64,000 nt of DNA from Ancylobacter vacuolatus. Its GTDB lineage: Bacteria > Pseudomonadota > Alphaproteobacteria > Rhizobiales > Xanthobacteraceae. The notes below the pieces were generated by a model. It ran no database searches, was not told where the DNA came from, and saw nothing but the letters and a program-made list of their open reading frames with translations. The stretch lies in assembly GCF_030813595.1 (NCBI RefSeq), contig NZ_JAUSUH010000003.1, positions 186,001 to 250,000 on the forward strand, read 5' to 3'. The stretch's first letter is position 1. Each line of letters opens with the position of its first letter. Below are positions 23,372 through 30,210 of the stretch, in pieces. The position numbers were made by a program, and so were the translations under genes.

Positions 23372-24028
23372 ATGCCTAATTTGGAGCGTAACGTGATCGA
23401 TCACGAACGAAAAGTCATCTTCGTTCACATTCAGAAAACCGGCGGAACATCCATCACCGCCCATTTCGGTCTTCCCGCCGCGCTGCCAGAGAAGCACTTC
23501 ACTGCACTCGAGCTGCGTGAGCTCTATGGCCGGCCTCAATGGGATACCTGTTTCACCTTCTCTGTGGTGCGGAATCCATGGGATCGCCTCGTGTCGTGGT
23601 GGGCGATGATCGACGCCCGCCGGGCGGATTGGCTGCGGGGGGCGCAACTGAATGCCTTCCAGACCTATGTGCTGCAGCGGACGACGACGTTCGAGGATTT
23701 CCTCGCCCATTGCGGCGACTTGGTGCGCGATTCGGACGGCGCGAAATCGATCCACCGCAACCAGCTCGACTATCTCGTCGACGAGGCCGGCACGCTCATG
23801 GTCGATCACGTCTGCCGCTTCGAGCGGCTTGCCGAGGACTTCAAGCAGGTTACGGAGCGCACCGGCATCACCGGCCCGCTACCGGTCATCAACGCCTCGC
23901 GTCGCAGCGACTACCGCCGCTACTACACTGACGGGACCCGAGCCTTGGTGGCGGAGCTCTATGCCCGCGACATCGCCTTTTTCGGCTTCGACTTCGACGA
24001 CGGCAGGATCGGTCCTGCCGTCGCCTGA
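23372..24028 (+). CDS. Sulfotransferase family protein
   Basis: A 218-residue enzyme of the PAPS-dependent sulfotransferase fold. The 5'-phosphosulfate loop is VIFVHIQKTGGTSI at about residues 15-28 and the 3'-phosphate motif is FTFSVVRNPWDRLVSWW near 61-77. This matches the sulfotransferase-2-like group that acts on carbohydrates. No signal peptide or membrane anchor is present, so it acts in the cytosol. It stands between the divergent ABC-F gene and the convergent sugar dehydrogenase gene. No PAPS synthesis gene is in the window. The acceptor is unknown; surface sugar or lipid is a guess from family. Confidence 0.85.
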   Translation: MPNLERNVIDHERKVIFVHIQKTGGTSITAHFGLPAALPEKHFTALELRELYGRPQWDTCFTFSVVRNPWDRLVSWWAMIDARRADWLRGAQLNAFQTYVLQRTTTFEDFLAHCGDLVRDSDGAKSIHRNQLDYLVDEAGTLMVDHVCRFERLAEDFKQVTERTGITGPLPVINASRRSDYRRYYTDGTRALVAELYARDIAFFGFDFDDGRIGPAVA

Positions 24029-25443: not shown

Positions 25444-26721
25444 TTATCCTCCTTCGGGCAGCCCCTCTCCCAGCGTCACCATCGGAAATTCAAGCACCTG
25501 ACGCAAACCGACCGCCATGTTCTCCAGTTTCAATGTCCCGCCATTGCGGGTAACGATCTGCTCGGCGATGGCCAGGCCCAGCCCCGCCCCAGGGGTAGGC
25601 GCACCGCGCGCCGGATCGACACGAAAGAAGGGTTCGAACACGCGCGGGAGCAGTTCCTCAGGTATTCCGGGACCTGCATCCTCGATCAGCACCTGCACCC
25701 TGCCAACGCCACTCGCCATCCGCACCGTCGCCCCGCGCCCATGGGTGGCCGCATTGATGAAGAGGTTGCGCAGCGCCCGCCGGAGTGCCTCCGGCCGCGC
25801 TCGGATGATCGCCGGGCAAGTCTGTGCCAACGTCACCGCGTAGCCGATCTCCTGCAGCTCCGCCGCCGTATCGGCGACCATCGAGTCGAGACGCATCAGC
25901 TCGCCGCCATCGCCCTCCACCTCCTCACGCACTAGGCGGATGGCGCTGTCGGCAATCCGGTCGAGTTCGTCGAGGTCGTCGATGAAGGCCGTGCGCTCTT
26001 CCTCCGCCAGAAATTCGGCCCGCAGCCGCATGCGTGTCATCGGCGTTCGCAGATCGTGCCCGGCGGCCGCCACCAGCCGCATGCGGCTTTCCATCACCTG
26101 CCGCAACCGTGTCGCCAGCTGGTTGATGGCGCGCGCTGCGGCCCGGACCTCGGCCGGCCCCTTCTCCGGAACCGGATCGACATCGCTGCAGGGCATTATC
26201 GCATCAGCGGTTCGTTGCAGCAGCGCCAGTGGCTCCGTCATCCGCCGCACGGCGACGACCATGACCAGCGTGACCCCAAGCGCGACAAGCAGTATCCAGC
26301 CGACCAGAGGCCACGCATTGTTGGGACCCGGGACAGGAAGACCCCACGGGACAATGAGCCAGCGGCCGTCGGAGAGTGGGGCCGATATGACCGGCCAATC
26401 CAGATCCGGCGGCTCGCTGATGAGCACATGCAGCGCCCGCCCGCGGCGCGCGAGGGCGCCGTTGATTGAGTCGGTGATGAGCTCGATCCGGTGCCCGCCG
26501 GCAGGGGCGCGAGCGATGCGGCCATAGGGAGCTTCCCCCACCGCGTCCTGCGTGCGCTCGGCGAGATCGACGAGCAAGCCGAGCTGAACCGCCGCGGCAT
26601 CGTCCACCCGGCCGAAATCGGGAGGCGTCAGCATGAGGAAGGAAAGCCCGGTCGCCACCACGAGCACGCCAAGCACGCAGCCGACCAGAAGTGCCGTAAG
26701 CTTGGTGCGAATGGTGTTCAC
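25444..26721 (-). CDS. Sensor histidine kinase
   Basis: A 425-residue membrane kinase. First membrane segment near residues 8-30, a periplasmic domain of about 100 residues, a second segment (WPLVGWILLVALGVTLVMVVAV), then a HAMP domain. The phospho-histidine is in VAAAGHDLRTPMTRMRLR near residue 220. The ATPase part shows the N box LRNLFINAATHG, the G1 box IEDAGPGIP and the G2 box GAGLGLAIAEQIV. The start is GTG and overlaps the stop of the regulator gene by four bases, so the two are translated together. EnvZ/OmpR-like by layout; the signal is unknown. It also sits beside the sugar dehydrogenase gene. Confidence 0.92.
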   Translation of the reverse strand: MNTIRTKLTALLVGCVLGVLVVATGLSFLMLTPPDFGRVDDAAAVQLGLLVDLAERTQDAVGEAPYGRIARAPAGGHRIELITDSINGALARRGRALHVLISEPPDLDWPVISAPLSDGRWLIVPWGLPVPGPNNAWPLVGWILLVALGVTLVMVVAVRRMTEPLALLQRTADAIMPCSDVDPVPEKGPAEVRAAARAINQLATRLRQVMESRMRLVAAAGHDLRTPMTRMRLRAEFLAEEERTAFIDDLDELDRIADSAIRLVREEVEGDGGELMRLDSMVADTAAELQEIGYAVTLAQTCPAIIRARPEALRRALRNLFINAATHGRGATVRMASGVGRVQVLIEDAGPGIPEELLPRVFEPFFRVDPARGAPTPGAGLGLAIAEQIVTRNGGTLKLENMAVGLRQVLEFPMVTLGEGLPEGG

Positions 26722-27479
26722 GAGGAGGCGCTGTCCGCGCCAGCTGCGGGCTCGACGCGCGCGGCCAACTGATAGCCTCCATTGCGCAACGTCTTGATAA
26801 TCTGGAAGTTTCCAGCGTCGCCGAGCTTGCGTCGCAGCCGGCTGATCAGCACGTCGACCGAGCGGTCGAAGCCGGCCGAGGCGCGGCCATGGGTGATGTC
26901 GAGAAGCTGCTCGCGCGACAGCATGCGGCCCGGCCGCTCCAGAAGGGCGAGCAGAAGGTCGAACTCAGCGCCGGTGAGCACGATTTCCCGGCCCTCCGGG
27001 TCCCAGAGCTGGCGGCTGGTCGGATCGGCGAGAAAGCCGCTGAAGCGCAGGCGCATGACGGGCGCGGCGGGCGCCGCGTCGCGCTGCGAAAGGCGCCGCA
27101 GCACGGCCCTGATGCGGGCGACAAGCTCGCGCGGATTGAACGGCTTGCCGAGATAATCGTCGGCGCCGATCTCCAGCCCGATGATGCGATCGACATCTTC
27201 CTTCAGTGCAGTGAGGAGGATGATCGGTACAGTGGAACGCACACGGATCGTCCGGCACAGGTCAAGGCCGGAGACATCCGGCAGCATCAGGTCGAGCACG
27301 ACCAGGTCGATGCGCCCCTCGGTGAGGCGGCGCTCCGCCTCCTTGCCATCGGCGGCCAGCGACACGCGAAAATTCTGCTCGGCGAGATAGCGCCCGAGCA
27401 GCTTGCGGATTTGCTGGTCGTCATCGACCACGAGAATGTGCGGGCCACTTCCCGCTTCCGAACCGCGCATATCGTCCAT
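26718..27479 (-). CDS. OmpR-family response regulator
   Basis: A 253-residue two-component regulator. Receiver: acidic pocket VVDDD at 17-21, phospho-acceptor Asp63 in VVLDLMLPDVSG, switch residue in ILLTALKE and Lys in GKPFNPREL. The C-terminal winged helix has EIVLTGAEFDLLLALLERPGRMLSREQLLD and SVDVLISRLRRKLGD. The start at 27479 follows TAGGGA; upstream starts at 27500 or 27725 exist in frame but lack similarity. It pairs with the kinase that follows with a four-base overlap. Targets are not known; the carrier-protein cluster is divergent from it across about 240 bases and could be one. Confidence 0.92.
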   Translation of the reverse strand: MDDMRGSEAGSGPHILVVDDDQQIRKLLGRYLAEQNFRVSLAADGKEAERRLTEGRIDLVVLDLMLPDVSGLDLCRTIRVRSTVPIILLTALKEDVDRIIGLEIGADDYLGKPFNPRELVARIRAVLRRLSQRDAAPAAPVMRLRFSGFLADPTSRQLWDPEGREIVLTGAEFDLLLALLERPGRMLSREQLLDITHGRASAGFDRSVDVLISRLRRKLGDAGNFQIIKTLRNGGYQLAARVEPAAGADSASS

Positions 27480-27723
27480 GCCGTCCCTATACGCGCCCAT
27501 CCCCGACCCTGCCGAAGATTTTTGCGACCGAGCATTGCTGCCCCGGCTCGCGCAACGCCGGGAAACAATTCTGGCGCATTTTTCCGGCTGCGGGAAACAG
27601 AGCGGCAATGCCTGCTCGCGGTAGGCGGGCCGGAGAAGGACAACCGGCCCTTGCTCCAGGTTCGGGCGTATGCATATGTTATCCGAGGCCGACCCACCGC
27701 TACTCTCTCGCTGACATTCTCTC

Positions 27724-27990
27724 ATGCAGACATCACTGGACAGCGAGCGCGTGCGCCGTTGGATCGTTATCTATCTCGCCGTCATTTCGGGCGAGGACAG
27801 CGATACGATCGATTTGGATTCCCGCCTCTCCCATTTCGACATCGATTCCGTCGACGCCGTCGAAATGGCGCTGCAGTTCGAGACGACGTTCAATCGTCCC
27901 ATCGGGGCAGAGTTCTTTCTCGTTAGCGAACTAACAATCCGGGAACTTGCCGGACAGATCGTCGCCAATGCCGCCGGACACCACGTTTAG
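27724..27990 (+). CDS. Acyl/peptidyl carrier protein
   Basis: An 88-residue carrier protein. Ser42 in SHFDIDSVDAVEMALQFE is the phosphopantetheine attachment site, in the usual D-S-[VL] context, and the protein has the length and charge pattern of a four-helix ACP. It is not the housekeeping AcpP, whose motif is GADSLD and whose neighbours are fab genes. The next gene, an alpha/beta hydrolase, starts inside its last codons, so the two are coupled. A discrete carrier protein with a hydrolase and an ATP-grasp ligase suggests a small dedicated pathway that loads, transfers or releases an acyl or aminoacyl group. No adenylating enzyme is in the window. Confidence 0.88.
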   Translation: MQTSLDSERVRRWIVIYLAVISGEDSDTIDLDSRLSHFDIDSVDAVEMALQFETTFNRPIGAEFFLVSELTIRELAGQIVANAAGHHV

Positions 27991-28990
27991 CGCGTCGGCG
28001 CTCCGTCCCTCCCGGCGGATCCACGCCGCCTCGCGACTCGATTCATCCTACCTCGCCTATGCCAAGTCCATCGCGCACGGGAACTCCGATCCCCAGCTGC
28101 GCCTCGACGTCTGCCGCCAGTTCGTCCGCTGCGGCATGATTGGCGAGACGGTCGCCATGCTGGCGACACTCATGGATGTGCGCGACCTGCGCGCGAGCGT
28201 CGCGGAAGTGATGGCGGATCTGCGGGAGCTGCGGCGACATCGCGCCGGTGACCTCAAGCTTCTGCCCGATATGGGGACCGAGGATGAGGGGGCGGAGGAC
28301 CGCGGCTATTGGGTCGTTCCAGCCAATTCGGATACGACGCTGGTCGCCTTCACCGGCAGGGCCAAGCGCCTGGGCTTGTCCGTCTACTTCATGCAAAACC
28401 TGCTCGGACGGCTGAACGTCAACGTCATTTATCTCTTCGACTGGTCGCACAGCTATTATTTCGGCGGCGTGTCGGGGCTTGGCGCCGACGTGGAGACCAC
28501 GGTGCGGCAATTGCGCGGCCTGTGTGCCGACCTCCAGTCTCGCCGGGTGCTCTGCCTCGGCCAGTCCGCCGGCGGCTACGGGGCTCTCCATTACGGCCTT
28601 AAGCTGGGCGCCGAGGGCATCATGGCCTTCAGCCCCATCATCCTTCCGGTGCTGGCGGGAAGGACACGGGACCGCATCGGAACCAAGATCGGACGCCCCT
28701 TGACCGAGGACGAGACCAATCTGCGGCAGCAGATCGCCAGCGCCGATCGAACGCCCCATATCGAGATCGTCTACGGTGCCGAGAACGTCGCTGACACGGC
28801 TTCGGCGCGTTATCTCGCCGCCTTGCCTCAGGTCGTGGAGCACCCCCTCCCAGGCGTCAGGTCTCATGGAACGATACAGGAGACGGTGGCCAGCAACACA
28901 TTCGGTATGCTGATGGATGGATTCATCCGATCATCCGGCCGGGGGGGCTGGGACGCAGGGGATCAATCGGCGATCAGCGACAGCCAGTAG
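27968..28990 (+). CDS. Alpha/beta hydrolase coupled to the carrier protein
   Basis: A 340-residue protein. The first 110 residues are helical and unassigned. The hydrolase core follows: strand WVVPANSDTTLVAFTGR, then the nucleophile elbow LCLGQSAGGYGALHYG with Ser200, and a probable catalytic histidine in PGVRSHGTIQE near residue 304; a candidate acid lies near IEIVYGAEN. No signal peptide. The ATG overlaps the carrier-protein gene by 23 bases, and the 3' end overlaps the convergent ATP-grasp gene by 28. It may be a thioesterase or acyltransferase that takes a group from the carrier. The N-terminal extension is not typical of type II thioesterases, so the exact reaction is open. Confidence 0.78.
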   Translation: MPPDTTFSASALRPSRRIHAASRLDSSYLAYAKSIAHGNSDPQLRLDVCRQFVRCGMIGETVAMLATLMDVRDLRASVAEVMADLRELRRHRAGDLKLLPDMGTEDEGAEDRGYWVVPANSDTTLVAFTGRAKRLGLSVYFMQNLLGRLNVNVIYLFDWSHSYYFGGVSGLGADVETTVRQLRGLCADLQSRRVLCLGQSAGGYGALHYGLKLGAEGIMAFSPIILPVLAGRTRDRIGTKIGRPLTEDETNLRQQIASADRTPHIEIVYGAENVADTASARYLAALPQVVEHPLPGVRSHGTIQETVASNTFGMLMDGFIRSSGRGGWDAGDQSAISDSQ

Positions 28991-30009
28991 GTCATCACCG
29001 GGCCCATCCGTTCAACTTCGGCACCATTGGCGAGGGGGCGCTTGTTGGCTTCGAGGAACCAGAAATGGAGATCCTGGTCGACGGCGAAGTCGATGCCGAA
29101 CTCATAACAGGCGCTCAGGCCGGGCTCGCGGCACAGCGTGGTGGCGATGTCCCGGGCAAGCGCCTGAATCTCGTCCACTTTTCCAGCCGGGTCGATCGCC
29201 CCACGCGCGGCGAAAAAGGATTCCGCGTCCACGAGCGCGCTACCCTTGGCCCGGTTCGACACCAGCTTGGAGCCGATGGAGATGCGGCCCGTCAGGCGGT
29301 AAATGTCCCAGCCTTCATCCGGCCGGCGGACCATATCGGGCCTCACGGTCGCCGGCTGGCCAACCGCATCGCGGGTGTCGATGAAGCGCTGAACCAGATA
29401 GGTCCGGTACGCCATGCGCGCGCGGATCGCGCCAACGACGCGTGCCATCGCCTCGGCGGCCGTGCCGCTCCAGGACTGCGAGTCCTTGTGAACGACAACC
29501 TCGCCGCCTTGCGGAACGATGAAGAAGATACCGGTTCCCAGAGCGCCATCGGACCTCTTCACCACGATCGGGCCATCTTCCAGCCACTGGGCGAGTTGTG
29601 CCTCGATCCGCTCAGCGACGAGCACCTCTTCGGGAATCAGGTGCGGCACAAGGTGGGGATAGGCGGCCAGCAGCGCGGTCATTTCGTGCTTGTCGAAGCC
29701 GTCAAAGCCGAGAAGCTTGGTCGTCTCGCGCAGCCAGTTCTCGACGACGCGATGCTCGGGCCGCGTAACCGGCGCCGCCGCGACGACGAGCGGAGGCACA
29801 CCGATCTCGACGCTCGTCCAGGCCCCTTCGACGAACTCGTTCGCCCTTATCCGCCCTGTGGAAACGTCGCAATCGGCACTACGGGCCAGGACCACCCTGA
29901 CACCCCGGAGCGCCGCCTCGCCGAGCAGGGCTCGGATCCGGATCGGAGAAAGGGATTCATGAAGCGTCGCCTCATGTCCCAGCAGGAGGATTGTGGGGGC
30001 ATCCGGCAT
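28963..30009 (-). CDS. ATP-grasp protein, YheC/YheD-like
   Basis: About 348 residues. The N-terminal 120 residues look like a preATP-grasp domain (ILLLGHEATLHESLSPIRIRALLGEA). The ATP-grasp core then shows a nucleotide lysine region GPIVVKRSDGALGTGIFFI, EVLVAERIEAQL and the metal and catalytic end in YEFGIDFAVDQDLHFWFLEANKRP. The layout resembles YheC/YheD family proteins, whose function in Bacillus is linked to the spore coat but chemically undefined. ATP-grasp enzymes usually join a carboxylate to an amine or thiol through an acyl phosphate. It is convergent with, and overlaps, the hydrolase gene. Start may be ATG 30009 or 30021. Confidence 0.75.
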   Translation of the reverse strand: MPDAPTILLLGHEATLHESLSPIRIRALLGEAALRGVRVVLARSADCDVSTGRIRANEFVEGAWTSVEIGVPPLVVAAAPVTRPEHRVVENWLRETTKLLGFDGFDKHEMTALLAAYPHLVPHLIPEEVLVAERIEAQLAQWLEDGPIVVKRSDGALGTGIFFIVPQGGEVVVHKDSQSWSGTAAEAMARVVGAIRARMAYRTYLVQRFIDTRDAVGQPATVRPDMVRRPDEGWDIYRLTGRISIGSKLVSNRAKGSALVDAESFFAARGAIDPAGKVDEIQALARDIATTLCREPGLSACYEFGIDFAVDQDLHFWFLEANKRPLANGAEVERMGPVMTYWLSLIAD

Positions 30010-30210
30010 CGTGTTTTCCATCTGCGTTACCGGTGGTTCTAGCCGGTGGGGCGGTAGCGGTGAACTCCTGACCGTGGCCCAGGCACCAGATTATTTTCAA
30101 GGGGGTGGAAAGACTTTGCCCCCCTTCGGAAAGCCCCGGCTCCTGTACCGGCAAAGTACGTCGCCGCCGGAACCAAATGGTGCCCTGGTGATTGATCGCT
30201 GGGGGTGAGC

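Follow-up and report, generated by a model that had tools for sequence, protein, structure and literature searches.

We studied a stretch of 64,000 nucleotides from Ancylobacter vacuolatus (contig NZ_JAUSUH010000003.1, positions 186,001 to 250,000), which we call the window and which belongs to a genome of 5.02 Mb (G000). It carries a cassette of three overlapping genes, which encode a discrete carrier protein, a protein with an alpha/beta-hydrolase fold, and an ATP-grasp enzyme that resembles YheC and YheD. An earlier note on this DNA had picked out the same genes (a carrier with Ser42, a 340-residue hydrolase, and an ATP-grasp gene on the opposite strand). The coordinates bear it out, as does Pfam for the carrier and the ATP-grasp enzyme. 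We argue that the three genes are inherited as a unit and that they may activate an acid and transfer its acyl group to an acceptor. Labels that begin with G (genomes) or L (loci) are our own. Within the window, the cassette is laid out as follows:

27724..27990, + strand: carrier protein gene (88 aa, stand-alone, phosphopantetheine site Ser42; PF00550)
27968..28990, + strand: alpha/beta-hydrolase-fold gene (340 aa, start ATG at 27968; triad S200-D276-H300)
28963..30021, - strand: YheC/YheD-like ATP-grasp gene (352 aa; PF14398; second in-frame ATG at 30009)
27612..30168, no strand: variable block, which holds exactly the three cassette genes; 45 bp take its place in the empty-site genome G028

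The carrier and hydrolase genes overlap by 23 bp, and the hydrolase and ATP-grasp genes, which are convergent, overlap by 28 bp.

The carrier scores 30.3 bits against PF00550, as compared to a Pfam cut-off of 20.8, and Ser42, within the motif DSVDAVE, is invariant in all six aligned sequences (the window's included). The genome contains two matches to the phosphopantetheinyl transferase family (PF01648). Carriers are usually charged by adenylating enzymes or acyltransferases. Pfam finds no adenylation, condensation, or ketosynthase domain in the three cassette proteins. The earlier note had remarked that the usual adenylation or ketosynthase partners were missing, and this holds up: no such gene could be recognised among the cassette genes or in the clusters from Azospirillum described below. 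Separately, contig C2 bears long carrier-bearing frames, which we take for nonribosomal peptide synthetase (NRPS) or polyketide synthase (PKS) genes.

The assignment of the ATP-grasp enzyme to the YheC/YheD-like proteins is secure, with 95.8 bits against PF14398 (cut-off 26.8). K155, D311, E324, and N326 are invariant in all five sequences of its alignment (A5), and we take these to be the residues that bind ATP and Mg (Lys, Asp, and Glu-x-Asn). Foldseek matches its predicted structure to RimK, D-Ala-D-Ala ligase, and glutathione synthetase; because the model is weak (pTM 0.44), this list serves only as a consistency check. A sequence search of solved structures gave no convincing homologue (best E values of 1.1 and 0.017). 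The family is rare: at E <= 1e-8, PF14398 was found in just 3 of 367 genomes of the class, the window's own included. Two genomes with the cassette (G002 and G009) encode a second YheC/D-like ATP-grasp protein that is 41% identical to the window's and lies about 26 kb from the cassette (L064:9166-10353 and L066:10192-11325, respectively); neither a carrier nor a hydrolase gene was found in the surrounding 20 kb.

The hydrolase appears to have a helical N-terminal part (residues ~1-110) followed by a catalytic domain (~111-325; AlphaFold model with pLDDT 65.5 and pTM 0.66). The S200-D276-H300 triad is invariant in the seven aligned sequences from trio-type loci, which include the window's. In a wider alignment of the family (A3), the residues that are invariant across all 17 rows, again with the window's among them, are D57, S99, D175, A179, and H199 in domain numbering, and S99, D175, and H199 are the triad. 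The model aligns over ~170-220 residues, with Z scores of 15-17, to esterases and acyltransferases. The top tied matches include 6oyc_B (Z 16.8), a chain of the Gap123 glycosylation complex that we take to be the counterpart of Asp2, and 6yuo_A (Z 16.2), the capsule O-acetyltransferase SacC.

By sequence, the hydrolase does not belong to a family that we could name. The earlier note had said that clear homology to a known unrelated family would refute its reading. Every Pfam and NCBIfam score fell below its curated cut-off; the best was PF00756, with 14 of the 22 bits required. Membership in the capsule protein family XcbB/CpsF was rejected, as the score is far too low (16.8 of 125 bits). No match to the Asp2 profiles TIGR03712 or PF16929 was found for the window's hydrolase up to E 0.1; among 17 of its relatives, three match TIGR03712 weakly (best 7e-4) and two match PF16929 (best 0.076). 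Solved structures, searched by sequence, yielded no convincing homologue either: the best E values were 1.2 for the single protein and 0.0019 for the family profile (generic hydrolases).

Inheritance and recurrence of the three genes

The same 6 of 30 genomes from the genus contain orthologues of both the hydrolase and the ATP-grasp enzyme (G000, G002, G009, G016, G020, and G024), on contigs that include those of Ancylobacter polymorphus, A. rudongensis, and Xanthobacteraceae bacterium 501b. The hydrolases are 72-100% identical (the one from G024 is partial), and the carrier gene adjoins the other two genes in all five of the genomes where the cassette is intact. In six other genomes (G001, G004, G011, G025, G026, and G027), the only counterpart of the hydrolase is a distant relative. 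G028 has an empty site: it keeps the flanking genes of both sides, with flanks that are 88% identical on either side, and 2,557 bp of the window (27612-30168) are replaced by 45 bp. The three genes appear to be gained or lost together.

In A. rudongensis (G024), every gene of the cassette is damaged. One deletion, which corresponds to about 27622-28372 of the window, removes the carrier gene and roughly the first 130 codons of the hydrolase gene, and a second removes 87 codons of the ATP-grasp gene, including the one for the conserved Asp311. The ratios of nonsynonymous to synonymous substitution rates (dN/dS), as compared to the orthologues from strain 501b, are 0.11 for the carrier, 0.21 for the hydrolase, and 0.12 for the ATP-grasp enzyme, which implies that all three are under purifying selection, although they are less strictly constrained than two neighbouring control genes (0.03 and 0.07).

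The trio also occurs outside of the genus. With the hydrolase as the query, we found all three genes at 4 of 4 loci from Azospirillum (A. lipoferum 4B, TSH100, B506, and TSO35-2), so the trio is present in two orders of bacteria; co-occurrence across genera was the test that the earlier note had proposed for it. (A scan of genome contigs with two narrow peptide patterns gave five loci.) The Azospirillum clusters run sulfotransferase-like, glycosyltransferase, YheC/D ATP-grasp (on the other strand), second ATP-grasp-like, carrier, and hydrolase. The gene order thus differs from that in Ancylobacter, while the partners within the trio are the same. In TSH100, the second ATP-grasp-like protein and the sulfotransferase-like protein score below the Pfam cut-offs. 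The hydrolases from Azospirillum are 37-39% identical to the window's, and the two ATP-grasp enzymes that we aligned are 30 and 32% identical. Given how rare PF14398 is in the class, the repeated meeting of these genes can hardly be due to chance, and the combination of purifying selection and recurrence elsewhere leads to the same view of the cassette. Overall, it is well supported that the three genes form a real unit that is inherited together. We also note that type I secretion genes directly adjoin two of the Azospirillum clusters (L023:8926-12710 and L029:10866-14640), on the strand opposite to the hydrolase.

Relatives of the hydrolase

To place the hydrolase in a wider family, we drew distant relatives from four overlapping sets of genomes: 151 related ones, 385 from the class, 297 from the order, and 398 from the phylum. 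This gave 48 wider loci, which are all of the non-orthologous matches, some of them short or weak. A carrier gene lies within the stretch for 18 of the 48, and in 15 of these 18 it is on the same strand and within 2.5 kb. From the background rate of carriers (238 matches to PF00550 in ~197 Mb from 41 genomes), about 1.1 carrier-bearing loci would be expected; the binomial P value is about 1e-17, which ignores both kinship among the loci and the difference between the profiles. Among the matches listed, at least 12 of the 18 carrier genes also match PF00550. The carrier matches in L051, L109, and L110 are weak, and the carrier of L105 is on the other strand.

The enzymes that accompany the carrier and the hydrolase vary, and we sorted the loci into types A to D, which are our own labels. 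(Some of the loci found with our profiles for GSP_synth, U230, and fatty acyl-AMP ligase had themselves gone into building those profiles.) Type C is a row of a GSP_synth ATP-grasp enzyme, a protein of about 230 residues, a carrier, and the hydrolase (L043:9379-12578, L055:7279-10289, and L056:7211-10262); the GSP_synth assignment was checked with Pfam in two of these three. The ~230-residue protein (alignment A6) had no Pfam match in the two members that were scanned, and it was found in 3 of 284 genomes of the class, two of which are sources of the alignment. We also assigned to type C a locus without GSP_synth, L047:8337-10211 (G429), which has the ~230-residue protein, the carrier, and the hydrolase. 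Another locus, L135 (G215), has a weak relative of the ~230-residue protein near a carrier protein; its open reading frames, read by eye rather than by profile, include a nonulosonic acid synthase, an LpxD-like acyltransferase, and a ketoacyl synthase III.

In type D, a fatty acyl-AMP ligase is present at 9 of 10 loci (L057 is the one without it), often together with genes for P450, PhyH, and pyruvyl transferase. An annotated example, on a plasmid of Sphingobium sp. RAC03 (L128:4841-15529), has a fatty acyl-AMP ligase, a carrier, a hydrolase with tetratricopeptide repeats (TPR), pyruvyl transferases, and glycosyltransferases. Other such clusters, in which a fatty acyl-AMP ligase and P450 or PhyH oxygenases accompany the carrier, the TPR-hydrolase, and pyruvyl transferases, are found at L049, L059, L060, L099, L102, L103, L125, and L126. 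According to their annotated records, two plasmid-borne relatives lie in a capsule cluster and in a pseudaminic acid cluster. On a plasmid of Tritonibacter mobilis (L129:4678-9089), a TPR-hydrolase of the family adjoins a pseudaminic acid synthase and is three genes from an annotated ATP-grasp enzyme; no carrier was recognised in that stretch. Types A, C, and D all occur within the genus Ancylobacter, in different genomes.

We built a quick tree from 52 of 58 loci, with SH-aLRT support values and without bootstrap (L053, L054, L115, L118, L119, and L124 were left out because their domain matches were short). Types A and B each form one clade and together form another (support of 99), which is joined by type C and by the carrier-less loci L044 and L045 (89, a node that was not starred). 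Nine of the ten type D rows form a separate clade (97). This tree fits the idea that a single family of transferases may be served by different activating enzymes.

Possible chemistry and its alternatives

We infer the chemistry of the cassette as follows. The cell's phosphopantetheinyl transferases would produce the holo-carrier. The YheC/D-like ATP-grasp protein, which we propose is the acid-activating enzyme, would convert an acid, either a carboxylic or an amino acid, to its acyl phosphate and pass the group to the carrier's thiol. The hydrolase, which we propose is a carrier-dependent acyltransferase, would use its Ser-Asp-His triad to move the group off the carrier and onto an acceptor; this would most likely be a sugar in a glycan that is secreted or on the surface. 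The hydrolase is best placed after the loading step because it is the constant partner while the activating enzymes differ. We tentatively prefer this account, a carrier-based system for acyl activation and transfer with a glycan sugar as its probable acceptor, and would put it at a little under an even chance. Within it, acylation or aminoacylation of a sugar seems the likeliest outcome, judging by analogy with the relatives, and here too our confidence is just short of evenly balanced. The weak matches of 3 of 17 relatives to the Asp2 profile go the same way as the fold matches to glycan acyltransferases.

The earlier note had suggested an ATP-dependent route to a peptide-like or acylated molecule. 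The core of that idea stands, as the trio does co-occur; a free peptide product fares less well, since the contexts of the relatives point more to the decoration of surface sugars. Nevertheless, the main rival to our account keeps the unit and makes the hydrolase a thioesterase that frees a small peptide-like or acylated metabolite from the carrier. The intact serine-hydrolase triad would suit a thioesterase, the two ATP-grasp-like genes of the Azospirillum clusters fit a dipeptide-like product, and type I secretion genes lie beside the clusters in L023 and L029. But relatives of the hydrolase are found in capsule and pseudaminic acid clusters and also beside genes for glycosyltransferases or pyruvyl transferases, and the Ancylobacter cassette has no exporter gene inside it, so we consider release of a metabolite to be somewhat unlikely. 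It is also possible that another enzyme of the cell loads the carrier and that the ATP-grasp enzyme, with either the tethered group or the acceptor as its substrate, forms an amide, that is, it tailors rather than loads. Most of the proteins closest to it in fold join amide or peptide bonds (RimK, D-Ala-D-Ala ligase, and glutathione synthetase, from a weak model), and in type D loci a fatty acyl-AMP ligase could load the carrier. However, we recognised an adenylating enzyme neither in the cassette nor in the clusters from Azospirillum, and we view a tailoring role as unlikely.

We think it quite improbable that the carrier and the hydrolase work as a pair while the ATP-grasp gene travels along in the block independently of them. 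This would account for L047, which has a carrier and a hydrolase with no ATP-grasp recognised in 20 kb, and for the second YheC/D enzymes of G002 and G009, around which neither partner was found in 20 kb. On the other hand, the same partners come together in a different order in Ancylobacter and Azospirillum, despite the rarity of the enzyme in the class, and all three genes are damaged in A. rudongensis. Finally, overlaps between convergent genes on opposite strands are common in compact genomes, and the three genes might be neighbours by chance; but co-occurrence, the empty site, and recurrence in another bacterial order leave this explanation with almost no probability.

Several points weigh against the transfer of acyl groups from the carrier to sugars. 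Among the fold matches of the hydrolase, ordinary esterases score as well as the glycan acyltransferases do. In Ancylobacter, no glycosyltransferase gene adjoins the cassette, so a sugar acceptor rests on the relatives. Which enzyme loads the carrier cannot be read from gene associations, and amide bonds are what GSP_synth and most ATP-grasp enzymes are known to make. At L047, no ATP-grasp or ligase gene was recognised in 20 kb, so the loader is either missing or unrecognised. As for the link between hydrolase and carrier, the wide carrier profile behind the count of 18 in 48 was built partly from six of the loci counted (L043, L049, L056, L059, L060, and L061) and is not the profile used for the PF00550 background; with a profile restricted to types A and B, the count is 10 of the 48. 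For the other 30 of the 48 relatives, the stretch examined contains no carrier, so the hydrolase domain does not need a carrier everywhere, and the carrier-less loci L044 and L045 (both from G331) fall within the clade that unites types A, B, and C.

Parts of the proposed system have precedents. In butirosin synthesis, BtrJ, an ATP-grasp enzyme, charges the carrier BtrI, and that system also has a decarboxylase, a monooxygenase, and a BtrH-type transferase. It resembles the cassette in that a discrete carrier is served by an ATP-grasp enzyme and not by an adenylation domain. The cassette differs in that it has only three genes, with an ATP-grasp enzyme from the YheC/D family and, in place of the transferase, an alpha/beta hydrolase. 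No decarboxylase, monooxygenase, or BtrH-type transferase is present in the three-gene block; no search for them was made elsewhere in the genome. (BtrI and BtrJ are named in an excerpt of PMC11405602.) The amino acid:carrier protein ligases are similar in that a small carrier is charged with a single amino acid, and an excerpt of PMC2922099 predicts the ligation of carrier-bound amino acids to the amino group of a cell-surface sugar. There, the activator is a class II enzyme like seryl-tRNA synthetase, in contrast to the ATP-grasp enzyme of the cassette; Pfam scans of eight proteins around the carrier found no such ligase. The scleric acid pathway, in the part of PMC6335953 that describes it, also combines an ATP-grasp condensing enzyme (SclG) with a carrier, but it has an NRPS module and a thioesterase, and the ATP-grasp step is proposed to follow release from the carrier.

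For the transfer step, we know of no dedicated carrier protein in the Asp2 or SacC systems. Asp2 (from the Gap123 complex) and SacC share the alpha/beta-hydrolase fold with the window's hydrolase, for which there was no sequence match at the family level. Asp2, which belongs to the accessory Sec system, is an acetyltransferase that acts on the GlcNAc of an adhesin (excerpt of PMC5578698). The type D clusters are alike in that a hydrolase from this family shares a stretch with a carrier gene, and they differ in having an adenylating ligase, oxidases, and glycosyltransferases. Fatty acyl-AMP ligases charge carriers by adenylation. We found no description of the three-gene combination in the open-licence literature, and most subscription papers lie outside of that search.

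A broader proposal, which is possible but doubtful, is that a family of carrier-dependent acyltransferases with the hydrolase fold has come to work with three or more kinds of activating enzymes (YheC/D, GSP_synth, and fatty acyl-AMP ligase), with the window's cassette as the smallest and self-contained form, which would place amino acids or other acids onto surface sugars without an adenylating enzyme. If the proposed chemistry is correct, then the cassette is a minimal system for carrier-borne acyl transfer, with an ATP-grasp ligase as loader and a dedicated hydrolase-fold partner, and it can be rebuilt in vitro. There would also be candidate functions for the YheC/D-like ATP-grasp enzymes of Alphaproteobacteria and for an unnamed hydrolase family with a conserved triad, as well as a way into the fatty acyl-AMP ligase and GSP_synth clusters in which the same hydrolase occurs.

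Genes around the cassette

Two nearby genes had been mentioned along with the cassette in the earlier note:

26718-27725, - strand: OmpR-type regulator gene, divergent from the cassette
23372-24028: Sulfotransfer_2 gene, between GSDH-like and ABC-F genes

The regulator gene is indeed divergent from the carrier gene. A link to the cassette is not borne out, as the regulator and its kinase are both in place in G028, which has no cassette, and we ruled out the regulator as a member. The sulfotransferase of the type that uses 3'-phosphoadenosine 5'-phosphosulfate (PAPS) comes and goes independently of the cassette: G000, G020, and G028 have it (G028 without the cassette), and it was not found at that place in G002, G009, G016, or G024, which rules it out as well. 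Similarly, a DUF2254 membrane protein is not a constant member, as its gene remains at the empty site; it has an orthologue in 7 of the 30 genomes, 6 of which have the cassette.

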